A stretch of DNA of 64,000 nt from NCBI RefSeq assembly GCF_900186465.1, contig NZ_LT891957.1:60328-124327 (forward strand), given 5' to 3'. How positions within the stretch are numbered: the stretch's first letter is position 1; each line of letters opens with the position of its first letter. The notes under the pieces are model-generated. The model made no database searches, was not told the DNA's origin, and saw nothing but the letters and a program-made list of their open reading frames with translations. Both the position numbers and the translations under genes were made by a program. This DNA comes from Centipeda felix. Its GTDB lineage: Bacteria; Bacillota; Negativicutes; Selenomonadales; Selenomonadaceae. Positions 3,774 through 56,066 of this stretch are shown here, one piece after another.

Positions 3774-3917
3774 TTTGATCTCTCCTTCTCCTCTTTGACT
3801 TTATCTAAAATCCTTGCAGAGAAGTTGTCAACTTTATTTATACAACATCATACCATAAATGTGATATAATGATAGACATCTATTCGTCTGACCTGCTATT
3901 TACGAGGAGATGTCATT

Positions 3918-5280: not shown

Positions 5281-5733
5281 TCAGATGAAATTCTCCACCG
5301 CAATGGACGGAGCAACGTAGAACTCCGTCAGCCCATGCTCCCGCGCCGTAATCGCCATTGGGAGAATACCACTGATCGGACGGCAGTTTCCATCGAGAGA
5401 AAGCTCTGCAGAGAAAAGTGCTCTCTGCACCGCCGCCTCGGGAACCATGCCGTAGGATGCAAGGAGTCCAACCGCAATCGGCAGATCAAGCCCCGAACTG
5501 TCCTTTCGCACATCGGCGGGTGCAAGATTCACCGTCACCCTCTCCTGCCGCAGCTGGATGCCCGAGTTGCGGATTGCAGTGCGTACACGCTCCTTCGACT
5601 CCTTCACCGACGTATCGGGAAGCCCCACCAGCTCAAACCCCGGCAGCCCCGGTGACACATCCACCTCAACGTCGATAATCCGTCCATCTATCCCGAGGGT
5701 CGTCGCACCATAAGTCTTTGCAAACAACGGCAT
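5281..5733 (-). pseudogene. comM: comM 5' fragment, copy L (truncated)
   Basis: Encodes [17 protein letters not shown] and onward for about 145 residues of the N-terminal domain of ComM/YifB, the Mg-chelatase-like AAA+ helicase that promotes branch migration during natural transformation. Homology stops after YVAPS, so the ATPase domain is missing. The intact start (ATG at 5733 with GGAGGGA) is present. The sequence is similar but clearly not identical to copy M at 57591, so this is not a recent duplication. Confidence 0.85.
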
Positions 5734-5744
5734 TCCCTCCTACG

Positions 5745-5791
5745 TTTCAAATATAAGAAAATTATAACACAAGAGAGGGTATGTTGCCTAA
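5745..5791 (-). promoter_or_regulatory. Promoter-bearing repeat (copy 1 of 4)
   Basis: On the minus strand it reads TTAGGCAACA, twelve variable bases, then TGTGTTATAAT and an AT-rich leader ending TTTGAAA. The TATAAT is a consensus -10. The same unit occurs upstream of comM copies M and R and of the UvrA-like gene. Confidence 0.6.
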
Positions 5792-5813
5792 TGATTCTTT
5801 GCAAAGAAAAAAG

Positions 5814-5847
5814 AGATTCCAAACGCTAAGTAGGGCGAATGGAATCT
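5814..5847 (-). terminator. Terminator hairpin AGATTCCA..TGGAATCT (copy 1 of 3)
   Basis: Read on the minus strand, an 8-bp stem with an inner GC stem is followed by TTTTTTC. It lies 17 bases after the stop of the cyclase-like gene at 5864. The same hairpin recurs at 57677 and 63163. Confidence 0.7.
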
Positions 5848-5863
5848 TCTCATTAATGAGGCA

Positions 5864-45771: not shown

Positions 45772-46215
45772 AGTTTTGCGTTCCTTTCGTTCTTGCCGAA
45801 CGGCGGGATGCAAAACTACGCACGGGCTTCAGTCCGAAAATGGGCATAAAGAAGCACGGTGGGAGCATAGAGATACTGACAAGCTCGTTACCTGTCAGTA
45901 TCCCTATTCGCATCCCGCCGTCCTATGGCCATCTTGGACAACAGATTGACTTACCTAGGGAAACCGAATTTGTCTCTTCCTACCACCACCTTAAAAATCT
46001 TTCTCTACATCGAAGCGGACACATACATCCGATTTGGTCACCGAATTTCTTGCTTGATTAGAAATTTTTCTGGTTTTTTCTCACAAAAGCGAGAAAAGAA
46101 ACTCTTGCTCGTGTTATAATTTAGACATCAACTGCTCTTGAGTTGCCTCAAGTATAAACAATGCGCTCGGTACAAGCGGGGACGCTATGGTACGCTTCGG
46201 CAGAAAGGCTCGAAT
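45772..46215. other. Intergenic divergence region between early phage genes and cargo
   Basis: About 440 bases without a credible gene. It contains motif copy D (46014-46042, minus) upstream of the early genes and a TATAAT at 46115-46120 that may start plus-strand cargo transcription. In many prophages this place holds the repressor/lysogeny switch; none is seen here. Confidence 0.5.
46014..46042 (-). promoter_or_regulatory. Bipartite leader motif GGTGACC-N15-GTCCGCT (copy D)
   Basis: GGTGACC at 46042-46036 and GTCCGCT at 46020-46014 on the minus strand, with a 15-base spacer. It is the most upstream copy, about 240 bases before the sigma-like early gene. Confidence 0.6.
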
Positions 46216-46773
46216 ATGACGTTTTCAGAATTCGTAAATCGCCTTCATGGCATTATTGGAGGAGGCGAGAACACTGTTGCATTTACAAGATCCATACTTG
46301 ATGCCATCACTACAGAGGAGGCTGATGAGCTCCTCAAAAAATATAAAAATGATGCCTATAAGTCGTATTTCAACGGAAATAGATCCATCGGCAATTTTGC
46401 GAAGGAGCTCGCACCTTACATTGAACCGGAGGTATTTGCCAGCTTCATCGCAGATCTTCCCTCGGATGCATTGAGAGAGACTTTGTGCAAAGAGTTCTTG
46501 GATATACTCCCCGATGCAACCCCCTTCACTATTGACAAAGAACTTTCTTCCCTGTTTGCCGATATTCTCCGAGTAGAAGCCTCAACAAAAAGAAAAGCCC
46601 CTCGGAGACAAATCTCTGAAGAGCAGAAAGAAACTTCGAATAACGGAAAGACAACTATTCTGGATGATTGGGACAATAAAATAACCGTCATTCATCATCA
46701 GACAAATGTGGTTCAAAGCGGAACCAACAATATCAATCTGACAAATAACGGTACGATGACTTTTAATCTGTGA
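46216..46773 (+). CDS. Small helical protein with a C-terminal NVxQxG tail (gene 1 of AAA module)
   Basis: A 185-residue protein. Residues ~1-125 are helical (SEFVNRLHGIIGGGENTVAFTRSILDAITTEE... YKSYFNGNRSIGNFAKELAPYIEPEVFASFIADLPSDALRETLCKEFL), then a basic linker (KRKAPRR), then a polar C-terminal tail (NVVQSGTNNINLTNNGTM) likely to form beta turns. It forms an operon with the next two genes. The tail motif recurs at the N-terminus of the next protein, so the two may assemble. Presumed sensor or regulator of the ATPase; no named family. Confidence 0.7.
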   Translation: MTFSEFVNRLHGIIGGGENTVAFTRSILDAITTEEADELLKKYKNDAYKSYFNGNRSIGNFAKELAPYIEPEVFASFIADLPSDALRETLCKEFLDILPDATPFTIDKELSSLFADILRVEASTKRKAPRRQISEEQKETSNNGKTTILDDWDNKITVIHHQTNVVQSGTNNINLTNNGTMTFNL

Positions 46774-46781
46774 GGTTGTCT

Positions 46782-47426
46782 ATGAACGAACTGTCACGCA
46801 TTTCTCCCGTGCAACAGATTTCCTATAACGTGAACCAACCCGGTGATAAAAACATCAATATATTCAATCATGCCGATGGTGTGATTAATCTTGTATCCCC
46901 AGCTCCGTTACAGCTTCCAGAGCATAATACGGAGCAGCTCATTGCCATACAAAACTTCAGCAAAGATTACTATCAGTTGATTGTCACAGTGGCAGAAGAT
47001 ATTTTTACGAGCAACGAAGTCATCATTCCCATCGACCAAGCTTTGACACAAAACCACGCTCCTTCAGAAATATATGACCGCTGTTCATCCTTATCCGAGA
47101 CTGGCATTGATGAATTAAAAACATTCCCGGCTCTGATATGCAACCAAAACACAGACTACCACGGTCTGACAGATGACAAACAACATGCCATATACAGCTA
47201 TATCAAACGAATAAAAAAAGAAGGCAGAAATATCAAAATATCATTTTGTCCCATAGCTGTATTTCCCCAACATAAGCTCTGCAAAAAGAGTACATCTGTT
47301 TACTTTGATCTTAATATGGAATGTGCCATTACAGATCTGAATCACAGTGCGTGGTCAGTCCACAAGGTCAATCTTTTTGAAGCATTTGCTATCGCCAATC
47401 TTTCAAATATGCCGAGACCGTATTGA
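46782..47426 (+). CDS. Middle protein of AAA module with an N-terminal NVxQxG motif
   Basis: A 214-residue protein. Residues ~10-35 (ISYNVNQPGDKNINIFNHAD) mirror the C-terminal tail of gene 1. The body (ALTQNHAPSEIYDRCSSLSETGIDELKTFPALICNQNTDYHGLTDDKQHAIYSYIKRIKKEGRNIKISFCPIAVFPQHKLC) has no recognised domain and seems alpha/beta. The ATG at 46782 has GAGG six bases upstream; a GTG at 46770 overlapping the previous stop is the alternative. Position between gene 1 and the ATPase recalls the middle component of three-gene ABC-type conflict systems. Confidence 0.65.
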   Translation: MNELSRISPVQQISYNVNQPGDKNINIFNHADGVINLVSPAPLQLPEHNTEQLIAIQNFSKDYYQLIVTVAEDIFTSNEVIIPIDQALTQNHAPSEIYDRCSSLSETGIDELKTFPALICNQNTDYHGLTDDKQHAIYSYIKRIKKEGRNIKISFCPIAVFPQHKLCKKSTSVYFDLNMECAITDLNHSAWSVHKVNLFEAFAIANLSNMPRPY

Positions 47427-47442
47427 TGAGGGAGGAAGAGTT

Positions 47443-49725
47443 ATGTCAACGAAACTTCCATGTGAGATTACCAAAATAGTGTTGGATGATGCGAGCTACA
47501 AAGGGACAAAGGTAGAGGTTGTTCCCACATATATCAACTACTTTTTTGGCAACAACGGAACGGGAAAATCTACGCTTGCGGATGTAATCGGAAAAGGACG
47601 CGGTCTCTCTTACAGAGCCGGAAGGGATTCCTCTGATTATACGACCTATGTGTTTGACCAGAACTTCATCAACAAAAATATGAATCTCTACCATAACCTT
47701 CCGGGCGTTTTCACGATCAATGAAATCAATGTTGAAATACAACAGCAGCTCGATCAAAATACAAAAAAACAAACTGCCGCAAACGATCTCATTTCTACTG
47801 CTGCAAAAAAGAAAGAGGAATATACCAAGCAAAAAGATGAGCTAATCACTCGGCTGCATAAGGATTGTTGGAAAAAAACAGCAGAGCTTCGAACCTCTTT
47901 TGAAAAGACACAGGAAGGAAAGAAAAAAGCAAAACTGTTCACCGATGCCGTAAAAACACATTCTCCAGTCGAGCATGATATTGATGAGATGAGGCGAATG
48001 TATAAATCTGTGTTTTCGGCATCCGCAAAGAAATATGAACGCTTCAAAGAGGTCAATGATCCTGCTGTCCTCGATTCTGTAACGGGATGTGAAATTCTCA
48101 GCCAAGCCATTGTAAACACATCAAATACAAAATTTGCAGAGTTTCTGAAAAAGGTAGGTTCCATACAGTGGGTTCGTCAGGGACATGATGAATATCATGC
48201 GGCAGCCGAGGGATGTTGCCCCTATTGTATGCAGGAACTTCCCGCAAATTTTGAAGAGCTGCTGTCCGCAAGTTTTGATGACCAATACAACGAAAGCCTC
48301 TCAAAGCTGAGCACCTTCTTATCGGCATACAGGGAGTCCGCAAAGGAACTCTTCGTACCATTAAGTTCGTTGCCGACCGAAGTATATCCTTCGATTGATA
48401 TAAAGCCCTATAATGAGAAGCTCTCAGTTATACAAGCGAGGATTCAATCAAACATTGACAAGATCAAAGAGAAAATAGAATCCCCCTCCTTGATCGTTAC
48501 TCTTGAAGAAACAGCTCCCCTGCTCCGTGAATTATCGGAAATCATTCAAGGCTACAACAAACTCATAGATGCAAATAATGAACTTGTTGCTGCAGGTCCC
48601 CAAAAGAAGGCAGACTGCACAAAAGCCGTCTTTGAGCATATTTCCTTTATCCTCAAAGATGTCCTTGAAGCATATGTCAGAAGCGAGAAAAACCTTGATC
48701 TTGAGCTGAAAAAACAGGAAAAAATTATTGACGAACAGCAAGCCGTTCTGCGAGACCTGCGAACAGAATATCGAACGCTCAGCAGCAAGACCGTGGAAAC
48801 CGAAACCGCCATGAACACCATCAATATGATGCTCCGTGATACCGGCTTCCAAGGATTTGAAGTGCGCCCCCATAAGGAAGCCAATAAGGCAACCATCAAT
48901 TATGAGGTCATCCGCACCGATACTGGCGAAATTGCAGAGAGTCTCAGTGAAGGAGAGAAGAACTTCATTGCCTTCCTGTATTTTCAGCAACTCGTATTCG
49001 GTAGTTCCAATGCGGACGGAGAGTTCAAGGATAAGATCGTTGTTATTGATGATCCCGTTTCCAGTATGGACAGCAAGGCTCTGTTTGTCGTGGGCGCACT
49101 GGTCAGAAAGATGATCGAGATTTGCCGAAACAATGCGGATAACAGGAATGCCCTTGTTACGGGTAATTTCATCAAACAAATCTTTATACTCACGCATAAT
49201 GCCTATTTTCACAGGGAGGTCTCCTACTCTCATGTGAAGCATTATGCCTTCGTATCCTTCTATCTCATTCAGAAGCGGGACGGAAAATCAGCCATCCGTC
49301 TGTGTGAATGCCAAAATCCCAACTGCCCTTCAGAGCAGATGAATGTAAACCCGGTCAAAAATTCCTATGCAGCATTGTGGGACGAATACAAAGAGGTCTC
49401 CTCCCCCATCCCGTTGATGAATATCATCCGTCGAATTTTGGAGTATTACTTCCTTCAGCTTTGCGGATATGAAGGAGAATCTCTGCGAAAGCGCATTCTC
49501 GAGGATCATAAGGAAGATTTCATATGCGATGATGATTACACGAAATTCGATATGGCTTCTTCCATGCTGTCCTATATTTCAAGCACAGCACGTGGCATCA
49601 ATGATGATATGCATTATGTGGATGATTGCTCTGACACCGATATGTGTCGCGATACATTCAGAATGATCTTCCGGCACATGGGACAGGAGCAACATTTTGA
49701 GATGATGACAGGAGTTGGTAATTAA
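47443..49725 (+). CDS. RloC/PrrC-like AAA ATPase, probable anticodon-nuclease-type effector
   Basis: A 760-residue SMC/Rad50-like ATPase of the AAA_13 type. Walker A FFGNNGTGKST lies at ~36-46. Long coiled coils flank a zinc-hook-like GCCPYCMQELP near residue 258. The ABC signature LSEGEKNF is at ~500 and Walker B IVVIDDPVSSMDS at ~530. The C-terminal ~110 residues are helical with RRILEYYF (R-x3-E) and RGINDDMH (R-x6-H), fitting the HEPN/anticodon nuclease end of PrrC/RloC. Such enzymes cut tRNA during phage infection. GGAGG before 47443 fixes the start. The nuclease assignment is inferred. Confidence 0.8.
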   Translation: MSTKLPCEITKIVLDDASYKGTKVEVVPTYINYFFGNNGTGKSTLADVIGKGRGLSYRAGRDSSDYTTYVFDQNFINKNMNLYHNLPGVFTINEINVEIQQQLDQNTKKQTAANDLISTAAKKKEEYTKQKDELITRLHKDCWKKTAELRTSFEKTQEGKKKAKLFTDAVKTHSPVEHDIDEMRRMYKSVFSASAKKYERFKEVNDPAVLDSVTGCEILSQAIVNTSNTKFAEFLKKVGSIQWVRQGHDEYHAAAEGCCPYCMQELPANFEELLSASFDDQYNESLSKLSTFLSAYRESAKELFVPLSSLPTEVYPSIDIKPYNEKLSVIQARIQSNIDKIKEKIESPSLIVTLEETAPLLRELSEIIQGYNKLIDANNELVAAGPQKKADCTKAVFEHISFILKDVLEAYVRSEKNLDLELKKQEKIIDEQQAVLRDLRTEYRTLSSKTVETETAMNTINMMLRDTGFQGFEVRPHKEANKATINYEVIRTDTGEIAESLSEGEKNFIAFLYFQQLVFGSSNADGEFKDKIVVIDDPVSSMDSKALFVVGALVRKMIEICRNNADNRNALVTGNFIKQIFILTHNAYFHREVSYSHVKHYAFVSFYLIQKRDGKSAIRLCECQNPNCPSEQMNVNPVKNSYAALWDEYKEVSSPIPLMNIIRRILEYYFLQLCGYEGESLRKRILEDHKEDFICDDDYTKFDMASSMLSYISSTARGINDDMHYVDDCSDTDMCRDTFRMIFRHMGQEQHFEMMTGVGN

Positions 49726-49871: not shown

Positions 49872-51587
49872 ATGATAAGATTTAGAAATCCTGGAACACA
49901 GTATACAACACAAATTCAAGTTATCAGACAACTATATAAAGCTCTACACCATCAAACTTATTTCACCCTTGAAGATATGGCTGTCGTAATTGCACAAGGT
50001 CGATTAATGACAGCTTATGGATACGCAGGCGATGATGCTCTCCGCTTAAGCAATACAGATCAAGAAAGTATGAATTCAGCTTTAATGAACGCAAAGATGT
50101 ATGCCGAAGTTTTTCGTATGCTTGGCTGGGTAACACCTTACAGCGAAAAATCGTCATATCCTCTAGTATTTACCTACATTGGTATTCACATAGCCCTATC
50201 AAAAGGAGAATGCTCTAGGCTCTACGAGCAATGTGTTCTTGGTATAAACACCCCAACACAGTTAAGTGGAAAAATGCGATACAGTGAAAAGCTGCGTTTT
50301 TTTAAATGTGCATTACGTTCTTTTATCGACTTAGATGGTATTATGTATAAGCATGAACTCTGTCTTGGCCCTATGAGCATCAATGATGAGGACGAACGAG
50401 AATATCAAAGCATGATTCAGTGTATAAAATCCTTGAGAGGTGATCATAAAAGATTAAAGAAAGCCTTTGAAGATTTAGCTTCAACTCTTGGTATGAAGCC
50501 AACACCCGTTGACAATTGCACAAGGCTCCCTATTGCCTTCATGAAAAGCTGTAGTTGGATTGAATCCATTCGAGATAAATCTTTATACGGAAAATCCTTG
50601 GATTGTTTAAAAATAACAAACCACGGAATTGAAACTTATGAACACATAAAAGATATGTATGATCTACGACTTGATCAGTACATAGATTTGGATCCCCATA
50701 CACAACACTCCATGATTCGTCTGGGGACATACTCCATGTTAATGCGGTCAGGCTATGATATGTCAGACGTTCTACACTTAATGGAATCTGACAAAGTTCA
50801 ATGCCAAGAAATAATAGGCGATAAAGAACTCCTTTTCTCTCCTGCCCAAACGATTCGACGCAGTCAGATTGAGGAGGCCCTTGATTTAAAGCTTGGACTA
50901 GGTATTGATTCTCAGTACCATATTGATGCATTTGAAAGTACCGTCAAAGAACGTGAGCGCCTAAATAACACACAAGTTTGGAAGCTTAGCATTCCAGATA
51001 GTGCAGCCAAGTATCTACTTAAGGCATCCGAGGATCGAGATTTCTTACAGCGAATTAATCAGATGCTTGGAGCAGGAAAAAACAGTCGCATGATTGTAAA
51101 CATTCTTTTTGATGATTACCTCAATGCTACACAGGAGACTTTTTATCCTTTAGTAGCTACATTATTTAAAATTATGGGATTTAATTGCTCTTCCTCCAGA
51201 CAAGGTGACAACGGCGCTCGCTGGGATGCAATTATTGACGATCCTACGAGAAGCATTCCCATTGAAATAAAATCACCAACCGAAGAACAACACCTCTCCA
51301 TCAAAGCAGTGAGACAGGCACTCGAAAATAAAATTATCCTTTTGTCCCGCAAGACGCACATAACCACACCTGATGTTTCCACTTTAGCTGTAGGATATTA
51401 TATGCCCAACGAGCGTGCTGAGGTGGTTAGATTGATTTCGTACTTTAAGGATACGTATGGATTTAACGTCGGAATAATTGACTTAAAGACCTTACTCTCA
51501 CTTGCAATAAGCATTCTCGTAGATAAAAAGGGATTTGATAAAGAAAAACTATATAAATTGGAGGGATTAGCAAGTGCAAATATTTAA
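49872..51587 (+). CDS. Putative restriction endonuclease, PD-(D/E)XK C-terminal domain
   Basis: A 571-residue AT-rich protein. The N-terminal ~400 residues are unfamiliar and probably contact DNA. The C-terminal ~150 residues have a PD-(D/E)XK layout: conserved helix (LVATLFKIMGFNCSSSRQGDNGARWDAII), Asp452, then IPIEIKS with Glu465-x-Lys467, and a following helix (LSIKAVRQALENKIIL). It starts an operon of four genes with two methyltransferases, so it is most likely the cutting subunit of a restriction-modification system. No HNH, GIY-YIG or helicase domain. The specificity is unknown. Confidence 0.75.
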   Translation: MIRFRNPGTQYTTQIQVIRQLYKALHHQTYFTLEDMAVVIAQGRLMTAYGYAGDDALRLSNTDQESMNSALMNAKMYAEVFRMLGWVTPYSEKSSYPLVFTYIGIHIALSKGECSRLYEQCVLGINTPTQLSGKMRYSEKLRFFKCALRSFIDLDGIMYKHELCLGPMSINDEDEREYQSMIQCIKSLRGDHKRLKKAFEDLASTLGMKPTPVDNCTRLPIAFMKSCSWIESIRDKSLYGKSLDCLKITNHGIETYEHIKDMYDLRLDQYIDLDPHTQHSMIRLGTYSMLMRSGYDMSDVLHLMESDKVQCQEIIGDKELLFSPAQTIRRSQIEEALDLKLGLGIDSQYHIDAFESTVKERERLNNTQVWKLSIPDSAAKYLLKASEDRDFLQRINQMLGAGKNSRMIVNILFDDYLNATQETFYPLVATLFKIMGFNCSSSRQGDNGARWDAIIDDPTRSIPIEIKSPTEEQHLSIKAVRQALENKIILLSRKTHITTPDVSTLAVGYYMPNERAEVVRLISYFKDTYGFNVGIIDLKTLLSLAISILVDKKGFDKEKLYKLEGLASANI

Positions 51588-52626
51588 AGAAAAAGTGAAC
51601 AGACAGAGTGTTCTCATCCTCGAAGAAATACCTACTGCATTTGAAATAGATCATGGAACCTCCGCTACTGCTCATTTCAAAAATGAAAAAAAAGATCATA
51701 TTGGTTGTATTGGATGTCTAAATCCAAGATGTATGTATTTTTTTGAGGATGAAACAGAGTGTAATTGCAATGGAACATTTGCAAACGATAAGTCAGTTAA
51801 TGTTTGTCCTGTGGAAGCTATCACATGGGATGATTTAAGCCATACTCCTATAATTGATTCAAAAAAATGTATCCTATGCGGAATCTGTGTTAGCCGTTGC
51901 CCCGTTGGTGCGCTCTACTTTTCAAGTCATGAGAGTTTGATGGTCGATACCACGCAAAGCGATATTGTTGAATATAAAAAACTTAACGACTTGATACAGA
52001 TTAAGCACGCTCATCAAATCGAGCAGTTGTTAAAGGTTCAACGATTCGGAGTATCACAAAAAATATCTGATGAGCTATTCAAAATTATCTATAAAAAACT
52101 TCGGCATATCAAAAGTAATTATCATAATATTATTGGAAGAAACTTACTTATTGCATTGGGCTGCAAATGTTCAATGCCAAGAATGGGTGACGTATATACA
52201 CGCATGGATGCTATATACTGTTCTCCGTCCGGTTCATTTGGTGTCGTAGAAATAGAGTTTGGAAAAGATACCTTGGATGCATCCAGAGGGATTCTTGATG
52301 ATATAGCCGTACTCAACAGTAGATATGGAGTAAATAAGCACAATAATAAGCCTATCGTGATTTGTCTACAATTGCCAAATATACGACAGGGATATTGGCA
52401 AGTCGTAAAAGATATAAAAAATGTAGTCGGAATCAAGATCGGAACTATTACCATCGGCGCTTTGATGTATCTTTTGTGGAATGGCTGCAAATTTGAGCCT
52501 GAAAATGATCGATACTACATAGACTACGACAATAGAAATTTACGGGAAATTCTATGTGTTCAAAGTTATTGTGATGGTATTCCATTGAGTGACAAAGCAC
52601 TGGGAATTATGGAGCCCATGAAATAA
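51574..52626 (+). CDS. Dicluster 4Fe-4S ferredoxin domain fused to a BamHI-like nuclease fold
   Basis: A 350-residue protein. Residues 45-110 hold a ferredoxin-type arrangement: Cys45, 48, 53 with Cys78-Pro, and Cys99, 102, 105, 109-Pro, plus Cys63 and 65. After a helical linker, residues ~185-245 (GRNLLIALGCKCSMPRMGDVYTRMDAIYCSP... GVVEIEFGKDTLDASRGILDDI) show a nuclease-like core with Asp212 and Glu226-x-Glu228. BamHI also uses D...ExE in place of ExK. It overlaps the endonuclease gene by 14 bases, with GTG start and GGAGGG. It could be the second subunit of a heterodimeric enzyme with the Fe-S clusters structural or redox-sensing. I know no described family. Confidence 0.65.
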   Translation: MQIFKEKVNRQSVLILEEIPTAFEIDHGTSATAHFKNEKKDHIGCIGCLNPRCMYFFEDETECNCNGTFANDKSVNVCPVEAITWDDLSHTPIIDSKKCILCGICVSRCPVGALYFSSHESLMVDTTQSDIVEYKKLNDLIQIKHAHQIEQLLKVQRFGVSQKISDELFKIIYKKLRHIKSNYHNIIGRNLLIALGCKCSMPRMGDVYTRMDAIYCSPSGSFGVVEIEFGKDTLDASRGILDDIAVLNSRYGVNKHNNKPIVICLQLPNIRQGYWQVVKDIKNVVGIKIGTITIGALMYLLWNGCKFEPENDRYYIDYDNRNLREILCVQSYCDGIPLSDKALGIMEPMK

Positions 52627-52712
52627 AGTTCAAGTGTTGAATAGTCTTGATAAGTATTGCCTTTTAGAGTATCATGTGGAATAGTTATTATTACGCAGAA
52701 AGGCGAAACTGT

Positions 52713-53870
52713 ATGTCTAAAAACATAGTAGGAACAAAACAGGCAGCAGAACTGCTTGGGATCAGCACTTCAACTATTTATAGAATGGTGGATCAAGGAA
52801 TTCTTCAACCTTCAAAAACACCTGGAGGACAGCGAAGATTCTCTGTAAAACAACTGGAGGAGTATAGAGAAAAAAGTCGTGGTATTATTGCTCCGCAAAA
52901 TCCATATCAGATGCGATTCAGTACGGAATCAGAAGAAATAGTGGAGCCCCCGCCCTCCGGGGCTACGCTTAGAAAAACTGATGTTGCCGAAATAACTGAC
53001 TCTCTTTTTGATAATAAACCAGTAGATCCAAGAAATACATTAAATGATTTAAATGGTTCACAATGGCTTCCTGAAACAAAAAGTTTCTTTTATCAGAAAG
53101 GACTTGGTGCTAAACATCCACATGCACAAATTGAACGCCAGCATCCTGCCCCCTTCTCATTTCAAGATATTACACACCTTATTTCCTTCTTTACAAAAAA
53201 AGGAATGAAGGTACTTGATCCCTTTGGTGGAGTTGGTTCGACCGCAAAAGCTTGTGCGCTAGAAGGACGTATATGCACAAGTATTGAACTACAAAAGAAA
53301 TGGCATAAATTAGCACTTGAGCGTCTTGAAGTAGAAATAGGTACAAGTACATCTAAAAATCATACTTTTATTCTTGGAGATACTCGAGCAGAGCTAAAAA
53401 AACTAGATGCCTGTTCGTTCGATTTTATGGTAACTAGCCCGCCTTATTGGTCAATACTAAATAAAAAAGCCGACTACAAAGTAAAAAAAGAGCGCTTAGC
53501 GAACAACTTAGCTACTAATTATTCTAATGATGATAAAAACGACCTTGCGAATATAGAAAACTACGAAGATTTTCTTCACATTCTTGTCAATGATGTATTC
53601 TTAGAATGTGGTAGGCTCCTTCGCCCAAAAAAATATATGTGCTTAGTAGTTTCTGATTTCAGAAATAAATCTGAGTTTATTAGTTTCCATAGTGATTTAA
53701 TTCAGCAACTAAATGGTAGAACAACTCAAGATAATTACAAGATTACGCTGCAAGGTGTTAAAGTTCTACTTCAAAATCATAAAACACTCTTGCCGTATGG
53801 ATATCCTTTTGCTTATGTCGAAAATATTCATCACCAATACATACTGATTTTTAGAAAGGAAAAAAAATAA
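52713..53870 (+). CDS. DNA methyltransferase with N-terminal MerR/excisionase HTH
   Basis: A 385-residue protein. Residues ~5-50 are an excisionase/MerR-like HTH (GTKQAAELLGISTSTIYRMVDQGILQPSKTPGGQRRFSVKQLEEY). The SAM-binding motif VLDPFGGVGSTAKACALEGR comes before the catalytic TSPPYW, so motif I precedes IV. SPPY suggests N4-cytosine or N6-adenine transfer. The HTH could let the enzyme repress its own operon, as in M.EcoRII/M.SsoII types. The ATG at 52713 has AAAGG upstream. It overlaps the next gene as TAATG. Confidence 0.85.
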   Translation: MSKNIVGTKQAAELLGISTSTIYRMVDQGILQPSKTPGGQRRFSVKQLEEYREKSRGIIAPQNPYQMRFSTESEEIVEPPPSGATLRKTDVAEITDSLFDNKPVDPRNTLNDLNGSQWLPETKSFFYQKGLGAKHPHAQIERQHPAPFSFQDITHLISFFTKKGMKVLDPFGGVGSTAKACALEGRICTSIELQKKWHKLALERLEVEIGTSTSKNHTFILGDTRAELKKLDACSFDFMVTSPPYWSILNKKADYKVKKERLANNLATNYSNDDKNDLANIENYEDFLHILVNDVFLECGRLLRPKKYMCLVVSDFRNKSEFISFHSDLIQQLNGRTTQDNYKITLQGVKVLLQNHKTLLPYGYPFAYVENIHHQYILIFRKEKK

Positions 53871-54703
53871 TGCAGGAGCATTATACTGGGATAGTTTGTG
53901 GAAATTCAGATATTCTCCTTCAAGAAATGCTAAATTCTAATCTCAAAGTCGACCTTATATTGACGGATCCGCCTTATAACCTCAATAAGAATTTTGGAAA
54001 TGACAGCGATAAACTCTCACTAGAGGCCTTCTTGAAAATTTCTAAAAAACGTATTGAACTATGTCGCGATCTACTCGTACCAAAGGGAAGTATAATATGG
54101 TTTGGCATCCATCACTATATTGGATTCATTCAATCCATCATGTATGAAGTTGGACTGAATTATCGACGCATGAATATTTGGTACTACGAAAACGGTTTTA
54201 GTAGGTTGACCACGGCTCCCCTTACCCAATATGAGCCATTTCTGTGGTTTTCAAAGTCTCCTAAAGACTGGATTTATAACGTTGATGATGTTCGTATTCC
54301 ATATAAAAGCACCGAACGCCTAAAAAGCCCTGTTTATTACAAGAACTCTAAAGGCGAGCGAGTAAAGTGGACTCCCCACCCTCTTGGTGCAATGCGTGGT
54401 GACGTATGGGCATTCCCTACTCTCGCGGGAAAACTTTTTAAACATGAAAAAACACCTCATCCGACCCAGAAGCCTGAATCCCTCATTACTGAAATTATAA
54501 AGGCCTTTTGCCCCAAGGATTCAAATGGATTTTATAGAGGCACCATCTTAGATCCATTTCATGGTTCTGGTACATTAGGCGTATGCTGCGAGAAGCTAAA
54601 TAGAGAAGGTCACAAAATCGAGTGGATAGGAATCGAACTTGAGCAAAGATGGTGTGATATTGCTACAGAACGCCTAAGCACCCTGAACTGTTCTCCTACA
54701 TAA
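53870..54703 (+). CDS. DNA methyltransferase, beta class
   Basis: A 277-residue methyltransferase. The catalytic LILTDPPYNLNKNF comes early, then a target-recognition part, then HPTQKPESLITEIIKAFCP and the SAM motif ILDPFHGSGTLGVCC followed by IEWIGIELEQRWCDIATERL. Motif order IV-TRD-I marks a beta-class enzyme, DPPY suggesting N6-adenine. With the preceding methyltransferase it could modify the two strands of an asymmetric site. Start codon overlaps the stop of the gene before. Confidence 0.92.
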   Translation: MQEHYTGIVCGNSDILLQEMLNSNLKVDLILTDPPYNLNKNFGNDSDKLSLEAFLKISKKRIELCRDLLVPKGSIIWFGIHHYIGFIQSIMYEVGLNYRRMNIWYYENGFSRLTTAPLTQYEPFLWFSKSPKDWIYNVDDVRIPYKSTERLKSPVYYKNSKGERVKWTPHPLGAMRGDVWAFPTLAGKLFKHEKTPHPTQKPESLITEIIKAFCPKDSNGFYRGTILDPFHGSGTLGVCCEKLNREGHKIEWIGIELEQRWCDIATERLSTLNCSPT

Positions 54704-54712
54704 ACAAACAGT

Positions 54713-55093
54713 ATGACAGTTATGAAAGAAATTCAGTCTGTCTCCATCTCGGCGACCACGGACACTACAAATATCAACCGACTTATTTACACCACGCGCA
54801 GTCAACAGGTAATCCTTGCCAGCGACCTTGCTATGCTCTACCAAGTGGAGACACGAGTCCTGAATCAGGCTGTGAAGCGGAATCAGAAAAGATTTCCCGG
54901 AAGATATTGCTTCCAGTTAACCAAGGAGGAGGCAAACTTGACATCACAAATTGTGATGTCAAGTTCCGCATATGGCGGGCAGCGAAGCCCTCCTTACGCG
55001 TTTACCGAACAGAGTATAGCTATGTTGTCAGCAATTCTCCGCAGGAATATTTCTGTGGAATTAGTAAAGACTACCTCAAGAAAATTTGGTTAA
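54713..55093 (+). pseudogene. ORF6N-domain protein, truncated
   Basis: A 126-residue protein with a clear ORF6N domain (LIYTTRSQQVILASDLAMLYQVETRVLNQAVKRNQKRFPGRYCFQLTKEEANLTSQIVMSSSAYGGQRSPPYAFTEQSIAMLSAIL). The usual continuation is replaced by NISVELVKTTSRKFG and a stop. About 20 bases further, NLRSQFGTS reads like a piece of another ORF6N gene. It is therefore a shortened or recombined copy of the neighbouring gene at 55155. Confidence 0.75.
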
Positions 55094-55154
55094 TTGCTAT
55101 TCACCAGCAAAATTTGAGATCCCAATTTGGCACCTCAAAAGGAAAGGAGCTTTT

Positions 55155-56066
55155 ATGAGTGAGAAAGCCCCTGATCAGACATCCATAGCGCCGATAGACA
55201 CAAGCCACATACGGAATTTGGTATACACCGTTCGTGGCATTCAAGTCATGCTAGACTCAGATTTGGCGTGGCTTTATCAGGTAGAAACAAGGATACTGAA
55301 CCGTAATGTAGCCCGCAACGCCCGTCGCTTTCCAGAGGATTTTCGCTTTCAACTCACAGAAGATGAGTTTGAAATCTTGAAATCCCAAATTGGGATTTCA
55401 AGTGACACTGTGCATGGCGGCAGACGCTATCTCCCCTACGTCTACACCGAGCAAGGGATTTCCATGCTGTCCGGAGTACTGCGAAGTGATGTCGCCATAG
55501 AGGTCAGCATCGGCATTATGCGGGCTTTTGTTGAGATGCGACATTTCATCGCCAGCAATGCCCATCTTTTCGAGCGCATAGAACGAATGGAGCTAAAGCA
55601 ACTCGTCTCTCAAAAAGAAACCGATGAAAAATTCGAGCAAGTCTTTGACTTTATCCACGCCCACACGGAGTCCAGTCAAAAGATATTCTTCAACGGGCAA
55701 ATCTACGATGCATTCAGCTTATTGGCGAGCTTGATTCAAAAGGCAACCAAGGACATCATTCTCATTGACGGCTATGTAGATATAGGAACGCTCAATCTGC
55801 TGGCAAAAAAACAAGCTAATGTTTCCGTGGAAATCCACACATTCAACAATACGAGATTGACGGCAGCAGATGTTGCGACCTTCAACAGTCAATATCCAAC
55901 GCTTACCATTAATCACACCAATGCCTTTCACGATCGTTTCCTTATTCTTGACCACCAAGAGGCATATCACATCGGCGCATCGCTCAAAGATGCCGGAAAG
56001 AAATGTTTTGCCATCACGCTTTTGCAAGATGAGGCTCTCCTACAGGAACTTCTGACACATTTGTGA
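55155..56066 (+). CDS. ORF6N-domain protein with PLD-like C-terminus
   Basis: A 303-residue protein. Residues ~20-120 are an ORF6N domain (LVYTVRGIQVMLDSDLAWLYQVETRILNRNVARNARRFPEDFRFQLTEDEFEILKSQIG... YTEQGISMLSGVLRSDVAIEVSIGIMRAFVEMR). The C-terminal half has a phospholipase-D-like layout (KDIILIDGYVDIGTLNLLAKK; HDRFLILDHQEAYHIGASLKDAGKK). Families with this pair occur on mobile elements and in bacterial genomes with unclear role. GGAAAGGAG gives the start at 55155. Confidence 0.85.
   Translation: MSEKAPDQTSIAPIDTSHIRNLVYTVRGIQVMLDSDLAWLYQVETRILNRNVARNARRFPEDFRFQLTEDEFEILKSQIGISSDTVHGGRRYLPYVYTEQGISMLSGVLRSDVAIEVSIGIMRAFVEMRHFIASNAHLFERIERMELKQLVSQKETDEKFEQVFDFIHAHTESSQKIFFNGQIYDAFSLLASLIQKATKDIILIDGYVDIGTLNLLAKKQANVSVEIHTFNNTRLTAADVATFNSQYPTLTINHTNAFHDRFLILDHQEAYHIGASLKDAGKKCFAITLLQDEALLQELLTHL

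Follow-up and report, generated by a model that had tools for sequence, protein, structure and literature searches.

A candidate Type IIT-like restriction-modification cassette of Centipeda felix with a ferredoxin-type domain fused to a predicted nuclease subunit

Introduction

Type IIT restriction endonucleases have two different catalytic sites and are generally accompanied by two methyltransferases, according to the available part of the 2014 review of Type II enzymes (PMC4081073). In some of them, as described there, a large subunit recognizes the DNA and cuts one strand, while a small subunit without specificity cuts the other. In BspD6I, the small subunit requires an active large subunit for its function (PMC6261011), and the large subunit nicks on its own (PMC6261011, PMC4081073). 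The present analysis concerns a four-gene cassette in a 64,000-nucleotide stretch of the Centipeda felix genome (contig NZ_LT891957.1, positions 60,328 to 124,327; hereafter the window). It comprises an upstream large-subunit gene (UP), the gene of an iron-sulfur (Fe-S) nuclease subunit (FD), and two downstream methyltransferase genes (MT1 and MT2). As far as sequence can tell, the cassette fits Type IIT by fold and gene content; its fold and gene content are of a known, BspD6I-like kind, and the apparent novelty is a Type IIT-like system with a predicted Fe-S cleavage subunit.

R.BspD6I is the best or near-best fold match of both UP and FD. The large subunit of R.BspD6I/BstNBI, which combines an N-terminal recognition part with a C-terminal nuclease and works beside a separate smaller nuclease subunit, has 604 amino acids, compared with 571 in UP (PMC4081073, available text). 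The same text gives 186 amino acids for the BspD6I small subunit, which leaves no room for a further Fe-S domain; FD differs from it by an additional domain of ~140 residues and by a Glu at the position of the active-site Lys. In BbvCI and Bpu10I, too, the catalytic sites differ between the two subunits and the target is asymmetric (PMC4081073, PMC6326814, both in part), while in BbvCI the subunits are similar in size and share recognition (PMC4081073). The words iron and ferredoxin do not occur in the available text of the BbvCI paper (PMC6326814), nor do iron, sulfur and ferredoxin in that of the 2014 review (PMC4081073).

FokI resembles UP in fold over both the recognition and the cleavage domains (VIA-align Z 12.2), and it also resembles the nuclease domain of FD (Z 9.5). 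To our knowledge, FokI has neither a second subunit nor an Fe-S cluster. It differs further in being a single chain whose cleavage domains dimerize (PMC4081073, available text). Cas4 and AddB are, like FD as predicted here, DNA-processing enzymes in which a PD-(D/E)XK-superfamily nuclease carries Fe-S. The cluster cysteines of Cas4 and AddB flank the nuclease domain. Both enzymes are RecB-type exonucleases with one cluster bound by four Cys (PMC3466216, in part), in contrast to FD, in which eight Cys are present and all lie N-terminal of the nuclease. The N-terminus of FD aligns in fold (Z 4.7–5.9) with ferredoxin subunits of the WOR5/PsrB kind. These subunits have a CxxCxxPxC-type first motif, as in FD, and are electron carriers for oxidoreductases which contain more clusters. 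Unlike them, FD is fused to a nuclease, and in its first motif the third and fourth Cys are separated by a long insertion.

Fe-S proteins have been described elsewhere in DNA defence, including Cas4 (PMC3466216) and DndC (PMC10853773), and the PAPS reductase of Type-4 BREX has a cysteine-rich, ferredoxin-like region (PMC12839542), as far as the accessible parts of these papers go. Among the matches listed by a literature search on Fe-S or ferredoxin together with restriction or defence, and on heterodimeric enzymes, which left REBASE and most subscription journals outside, there was no Fe-S Type II endonuclease, nor any restriction subunit fused to a ferredoxin-type domain.

Results

Homologues of FD and the conserved cassette

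When 380 genomes from the class of C. felix were searched, three FD-like proteins were returned, i.e., that of the window and two others with 57% and 41% identity to it. Matches in two additional genomes (G020 and G043) were judged by eye to be hydrogenase-type or ordinary ferredoxin-like proteins, and were not accepted as FD. A single-sequence search of genome contigs with FD gave no matches, and a profile built from three FD sequences gave 16 loci. A phylum-level search, in which 116 of 398 genomes matched, added one FD locus (G612); only G000 and G612 were kept, the others listed covering just the ferredoxin part, residues 21–160 of FD. Two of the profile loci (L012 and L021) are the same as two of the same-class matches and were counted once. 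The total is 18 distinct FD loci, of which 16 are full-length and two are fragments comprising residues 142–350 (L018) and 179–350 (L023). Titles of the profile loci name Oscillospiraceae, Ruminococcaceae, Selenomonadaceae, Clostridia, Ruminiclostridium, Clostridium, Acutalibacter, Lacrimispora, Eubacterium and Gastranaerophilales, and two further loci are titled only "Bacillota bacterium" and "uncultured bacterium". Two cultured carriers among them are Ruminiclostridium cellobioparum DSM 1351 and Clostridium thermopalmarium DSM 5974. For most of the titled records the lineage is an anaerobic one. The scan employed two peptide patterns and favours close relatives, and thus should not be read as showing that aerobes lack the family.

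Table 1. Features of the cassette in the window (positions are those of the window)
Feature	Position	Strand	Description or basis
UP, large subunit gene, 571 aa	49872..51587	+	N-terminal recognition-type domains, C-terminal PD-(D/E)XK nuclease (predicted)
FD, Fe-S nuclease subunit gene	51574..52626	+	Open reading frame, 350 aa, GTG start
FD ferredoxin-type domain, ~residues 8–140	51595..51993	+	Pfam Fer4/Fer4_7, invariant Cys, WOR5 alignment
FD PD-(D/E)XK-type domain, ~residues 160–331	52051..52566	+	Fold matches, paralogy to UP, D206/D212/E226/E228
MT1, methyltransferase	52674..53870	+	N-terminal HTH_17/MerR-type domain, then DPFGG, TSPPYW motifs
MT2, methyltransferase	53870..54703	+	TDPPYN and DPFxGSGT motifs

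UP lies immediately before FD in all 16 loci with full-length FD, which led us to reject the notion that FD is a whole single-subunit endonuclease. At least one of MT1 and MT2 is near FD in every one of these loci and both are in 14; the two exceptions are at contig ends, where L020 stops within MT1 and L021 starts within MT2. The four genes therefore form a recurrent cassette, the order of which varies: in L017, L023 and L024 the methyltransferase genes have the opposite orientation, and in L022 and L055 they share the strand of UP and precede it. Thus, the linkage has been kept despite rearrangement. In the window itself, FD overlaps the upstream gene and is followed by two methyltransferase genes, as stated in the original prediction; the overlap is 14 nt, and both methyltransferases are of N6_N4 type. 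A GGAGG sequence resembling a ribosome-binding site is located just 5' of the FD start codon, within the 3' end of UP. Pattern scans for promoters and terminators gave results at chance level.

The two loci with FD fragments retain intact reading frames for MT1 and MT2. A UP profile (E value ≤ 0.001) found nothing in the genomes of L018 and L023, and detected UP in the other four of the six genomes searched. One residue that never varies among the 16 full-length proteins is lost in either fragment as well, R271 in L018 and C264 in L023, with the four acidic residues of the site (see below) kept. Retention of methylation while the cutting subunits are lost is a usual path of decay of restriction-modification systems, and supports the assignment of the cassette to this class.

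Over the 14 loci in which the cassette is complete, excluding L018, L020, L021 and L023, the mean pairwise distance is 0.60 for the Fe-S part of FD, 0.43 for its nuclease part, 0.38 for UP, 0.30 for MT1 and 0.23 for MT2. Apart from its ligands, the Fe-S domain is consequently the fastest-changing part of the cassette. The distances of all five parts correlate with each other (r 0.76–0.94; values as high arose in no more than 6 of 2000 permutations), the pattern that joint inheritance of a unit would produce. Among 348 other open reading frames of at least 90 codons in the flanks of 17 loci (window excluded), no family occurred in more than three loci, so that neither a fifth gene nor a dedicated redox partner is in view within these flanks.

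Intact relatives of FD lacking the Fe-S domain were sought with a profile of the nuclease half, and none was found in narrow samples of 82, 394, 286 and 58 genomes. This profile matched five genomes, four with full FD (G881, G883, G879, and G1541, which was taken from its coordinates as the genome of L020) and one (G882) with the L018 fragment. A UP profile run on 63 genomes of the class of G612 matched G612 alone. FD had no match in plasmids and phages and UP none in plasmids, and the FD and UP profiles had no relatives in viral contigs. Two short matches of the single FD sequence in viral contigs were taken for chance, one of them being inside a gene that by eye is ribonucleotide reductase-like.

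The ferredoxin-type domain of FD

The original prediction placed eight Cys of FD, at positions 45, 48, 53, 78, 99, 102, 105 and 109, in dicluster ferredoxin spacing. They form the motifs C45-x2-C48-x4-C53-x24-C78-P and C99-x2-C102-x2-C105-x3-C109-P, and two additional Cys are present at 63 and 65. Because the eight were named before any alignment existed, their conservation constitutes a fair test, and all are invariant in the 16 full-length homologues, whose Fe-S regions share on average only 40% pairwise identity. Only 16 of the 133 columns in residues 8–140 are invariant, and these hold all eight named Cys (hypergeometric 6.6e-9). By comparison, C63 is conserved in 13 of the 16. Eight Cys in two motifs, as characterize dicluster ferredoxins, are hence present in all 16 full-length members.

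The results of Pfam searches identify Fer4 (E value 6.6e-8) and Fer4_7 (E value 4.6e-7) in FD, both over the cut-off and within residues 75–115, and all 16 full-length members match both families at E ≤ 0.01. The Fer4_7 match has 30.7 bits against a cut-off of 27 and pairs residues 75–113 with profile positions 9–52 of 52, leaving the first Cys motif uncovered. PADLOC has no match for FD, and the 25 NCBIfam matches listed are solely of ferredoxin type and below cut-off. In VIA-align, residues 11–157 of the FD model align with the WOR5 ferredoxin subunit with a modest Z of 5.9, followed by ferredoxin subunits of aldehyde oxidoreductases (Z 5.6 and 4.7) and of polysulfide reductase (Z 4.7). Taken as a ferredoxin-type domain, the N-terminal part of FD would be expected to accommodate two 4Fe-4S clusters.

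The nuclease domain of FD

Pfam gave nothing significant in the nuclease half of FD. The residues D212, E226 and E228, which had been proposed as the site, are invariant in all 18 sequences, the two fragments included, as is D206. The chance that all four of these acidic residues would be invariant is 0.0012, with D206 added after the alignment had been viewed. D..ExE is the active BamHI form of the PD-(D/E)XK site. The FD model, calculated with AlphaFold2 from 17 aligned sequences (L025 left out; the fragments L018 and L023 included), has a pLDDT of 83.8 and a pTM of 0.88. It contains the alpha-beta core which, together with the site, defines the PD-(D/E)XK superfamily, the site being in the variant form D...ExE. 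The top nine rows returned by VIA-align for this model are all FokI, N.BspD6I or HindIII, with Z 8.7–9.5 and 149–169 aligned residues, some of them extending back into the Fe-S part. The nuclease-like core anticipated from the sequence is thus present in the model. Absence of BamHI or of other families from the VIA-align lists is uninformative.

Comparison of profiles by hhalign indicates that the nuclease half of FD and the C-terminus of UP are paralogous (probability 95.3, E value 2.2e-8). In this alignment D212, E226 and E228 of FD are paired with D452, E465 and K467 of UP, i.e., a D..EIE site with a D..EIK site.

The large subunit

Neither Pfam (nothing significant), nor NCBIfam and PADLOC (no match), nor a search of PDB sequences with the UP profile (no convincing match) classified UP. 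The alignment of UP homologues shows that D452, E465 and K467 of the D452, E465-I-K467 site are invariant in all 16 sequences. The predicted structure, for which the N-termini of partner reading frames were trimmed in frame (pLDDT 77.5, pTM 0.59), yielded 11 Foldseek matches at E ≤ 0.001, every one of them FokI or N.BspD6I. In VIA-align the full-length matches were N.BspD6I (Z 13.5, rmsd 15.2, 377 aligned) and FokI (rmsd 21.8). When its parts are considered separately, residues 4–333 align with the DNA-binding domain of BpuJI (Z 11.4, rmsd 5.4), with winged-helix proteins in general trailing at Z 7–9, and residues 388–570 align with the R.BspD6I small subunit, 2p14 (Z 10.1, rmsd 3.5).

These matches bear on the comparison with BamHI made in the original prediction. 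It holds for the D..ExE form of the FD site and falls short as the sole comparison, since the predicted fold of UP is that of a large, site-recognizing subunit, and heterodimers of the BspD6I/BbvCI type are consequently the better model.

The methyltransferases

Both downstream gene products match the Pfam family N6_N4_Mtase, with E values of 1.1e-18 for MT1 and 4.9e-46 for MT2. MT1 has in addition an HTH_17 domain (E value 5.6e-14) and might thereby control the expression of its own operon. The DPFGG and TSPPYW motifs are present in the 16 MT1 sequences examined, and the TDPPYN and DPFxGSGT motifs in the 16 MT2 sequences examined. Plasmids and phages contained just three and four distant matches of MT1, all with less than 37% identity.

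Discussion

A proposed Type IIT-like system

We propose, with a probability of about 0.72, that UP, FD, MT1 and MT2 constitute a BspD6I-like Type IIT restriction-modification system in which FD carries a dicluster ferredoxin domain that likely has a structural role. The proposal builds on the gene content and its linkage, on the homology of the two nuclease domains, on the conservation of ligands and active-site residues, and on the predicted folds; from these we infer the formation of a UP-FD heterodimer, the assignment of strands, the loading of the clusters and their role. Sequence and predicted fold indicate two catalytic sites on two subunits (UP in 16 of 16 sequences, FD in 18 of 18), the predicted fold of UP includes a recognition domain on the large subunit as in BspD6I, BsrDI and BtsI, and two methyltransferases occur in 14 of the 16 full-FD loci and in both fragment loci. 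A fusion of a ferredoxin-type domain with a nuclease domain in a restriction-modification setting, as originally predicted, is therefore supported by homologues, linkage and predicted structure alike.

The descriptions of Type IIT enzymes and of BspD6I suggest how the products might cooperate. The N-terminal domains of UP would recognize an asymmetric DNA site, and its D..EIK site would nick one strand. FD would dock on UP, and its D..EIE site, paralogous to that of UP, would cut the other strand, while MT1 and MT2 would protect the host DNA, one per strand. The clusters would act as a structural staple which holds the fold of FD for the binding of UP and DNA, making double-strand restriction dependent on intact FD clusters. 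Restriction of DNA by these anaerobes may hence require iron and anoxic conditions. A structural role is favoured because the ligands are kept amid drift of the domain, the cassette has no linked gene for a partner, and in Cas4 the cluster is important for stability (PMC3466216).

Several points weigh against this proposal. The Z values of 8.7–9.5 for FD are only a little higher than the typical best of 7 to 8 given in the note accompanying VIA-align, which regards Z below 8 as weak, and those of the ferredoxin rows are at most 5.9. The Foldseek matches of FD are weak, the best of them being EcoO109I at 4e-3 and none reaching E ≤ 0.001. The UP model has a pTM of 0.59, and its full-length matches have an rmsd above 15 with the domains placed differently, so that support comes from the separate domains. 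The Pfam matches cover C78 to C109 and leave the first Cys motif outside, and in this motif 24 residues separate the third Cys from the fourth, in contrast to the CxxCxxCxxxCP of a standard ferredoxin. With E228 in place of the usual Lys, the FD site may be weaker or inactive. Plain co-inheritance would also yield correlated distances. More generally, the system is known from genes and predicted folds, and its activity, the complex and the clusters are all predicted from them.

Alternative explanations

The same cluster domain might instead act as a switch, oxidation or loss of the clusters stopping the second-strand cut by FD and leaving UP as a nickase or the enzyme off. We regard such redox or oxygen gating as possible but doubtful. 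It would account for the retention of the eight ligands of both clusters in 16 of 16 sequences while the surrounding domain drifts (0.60, against 0.43 in the nuclease part), and for the predominance, in the record titles, of lineages generally known as anaerobic. It would also suit the division of labour in BspD6I, the small subunit of which needs an active large one while the large one alone nicks (PMC6261011, PMC4081073, available parts). These sequence features do not, however, distinguish a sensor from a structural staple, and the flanks examined contain no recurrent gene for a redox partner; moreover, the cluster of Cas4 matters for stability, and in a related nuclease zinc replaces it (PMC3466216, in part). 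Somewhat more speculative still is an enzyme capable of full restriction in anaerobic, iron-replete cells and reduced to a harmless nickase otherwise, through control of the second-strand cut.

Zinc is central to another explanation, in which the Cys-containing part of FD binds zinc or is a degenerate ferredoxin, and serves only as a module for DNA recognition or subunit contact. Only C78 and the second Cys motif match the Fer4 profiles directly, and the substitution of zinc for the cluster in the AddB-related nuclease (PMC3466216, in part) provides a precedent. The presence of two CP-type motifs with all eight ligands invariant, the Fer4 and Fer4_7 matches in 16 of 16 members, and the alignment, albeit at modest Z (4.7–5.9), with the ferredoxin subunits of WOR5, aldehyde oxidoreductase and polysulfide reductase make this improbable. 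In addition, the domain carries a net negative charge in 13 of the 16 homologues, is neutral in one and positive in two, so that DNA binding is not suggested. The substitution at the active site raises a different question, namely whether FD lacks catalytic activity and serves as a regulatory or DNA-binding partner, with UP alone cutting both strands upon dimerization in the manner of FokI. E228 replaces the canonical Lys in 18 of 18 sequences, and UP possesses a complete D..EIK site in 16 of 16. On the other hand, ExE is found in active BamHI, D206, D212, E226 and E228 never vary among the 18 sequences, the two fragments included, and intact FD was never found without UP, with which its distances agree; we thus consider an inactive FD unlikely, if a little less so than a zinc-binding or degenerate domain. 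Finally, the sole significant family matches of FD are to ferredoxin profiles, as would be the case if FD belonged to a redox operon and stood beside the methyltransferases by accident. We reject this reading as exceedingly improbable, because linkage to at least one methyltransferase is conserved in all 16 full loci, and to both in the two fragment loci, and because the flanks examined show no recurrent redox gene; full-length FD is not consistently found in redox operons, which had been named at the outset as the context that would speak against a restriction function.

Implications

If the proposed Type IIT-like system is real, a conserved cleavage subunit equipped with a ferredoxin domain for two clusters would connect restriction with iron-sulfur metabolism in Type II restriction enzymes, which are among the best studied of all enzymes. 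It would offer a clean system for asking why DNA enzymes carry Fe-S clusters, as a staple or as a redox switch, since UP, which is without cluster motifs, would be expected to keep nicking alone and so to serve as an internal control. Under the same assumption, aerobic screens could miss the activity of FD and UP.

Neighbouring genes

Three genes directly upstream of the cassette (46138–49725) resemble a Lamassu-like defence module. One matches LmuA of PADLOC (E value 4e-15), one has no match, and one encodes an AAA_13 ATPase with a match to PDC-S06 (1e-198) and a weaker one to LmuB (7e-17). L012 shares these three genes with the window, likewise upstream of the restriction cassette. On the other side, MT2 is followed by two ORF6N-domain genes (54713–56066), the second of which matches PDC-S05 of PADLOC at 4e-128.

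One family of flanking reading frames is shared by L017, L022 and L024, and two more by L017 and L024. By eye these families are phage replication-like, and thus the cassette may travel in prophages. A family which appears by eye to be transposase-like is located near three cassettes, at 3844–5004 in L013, at 5427–5855 and 11640–12026 in L015, and at 1090–1671 in L021.

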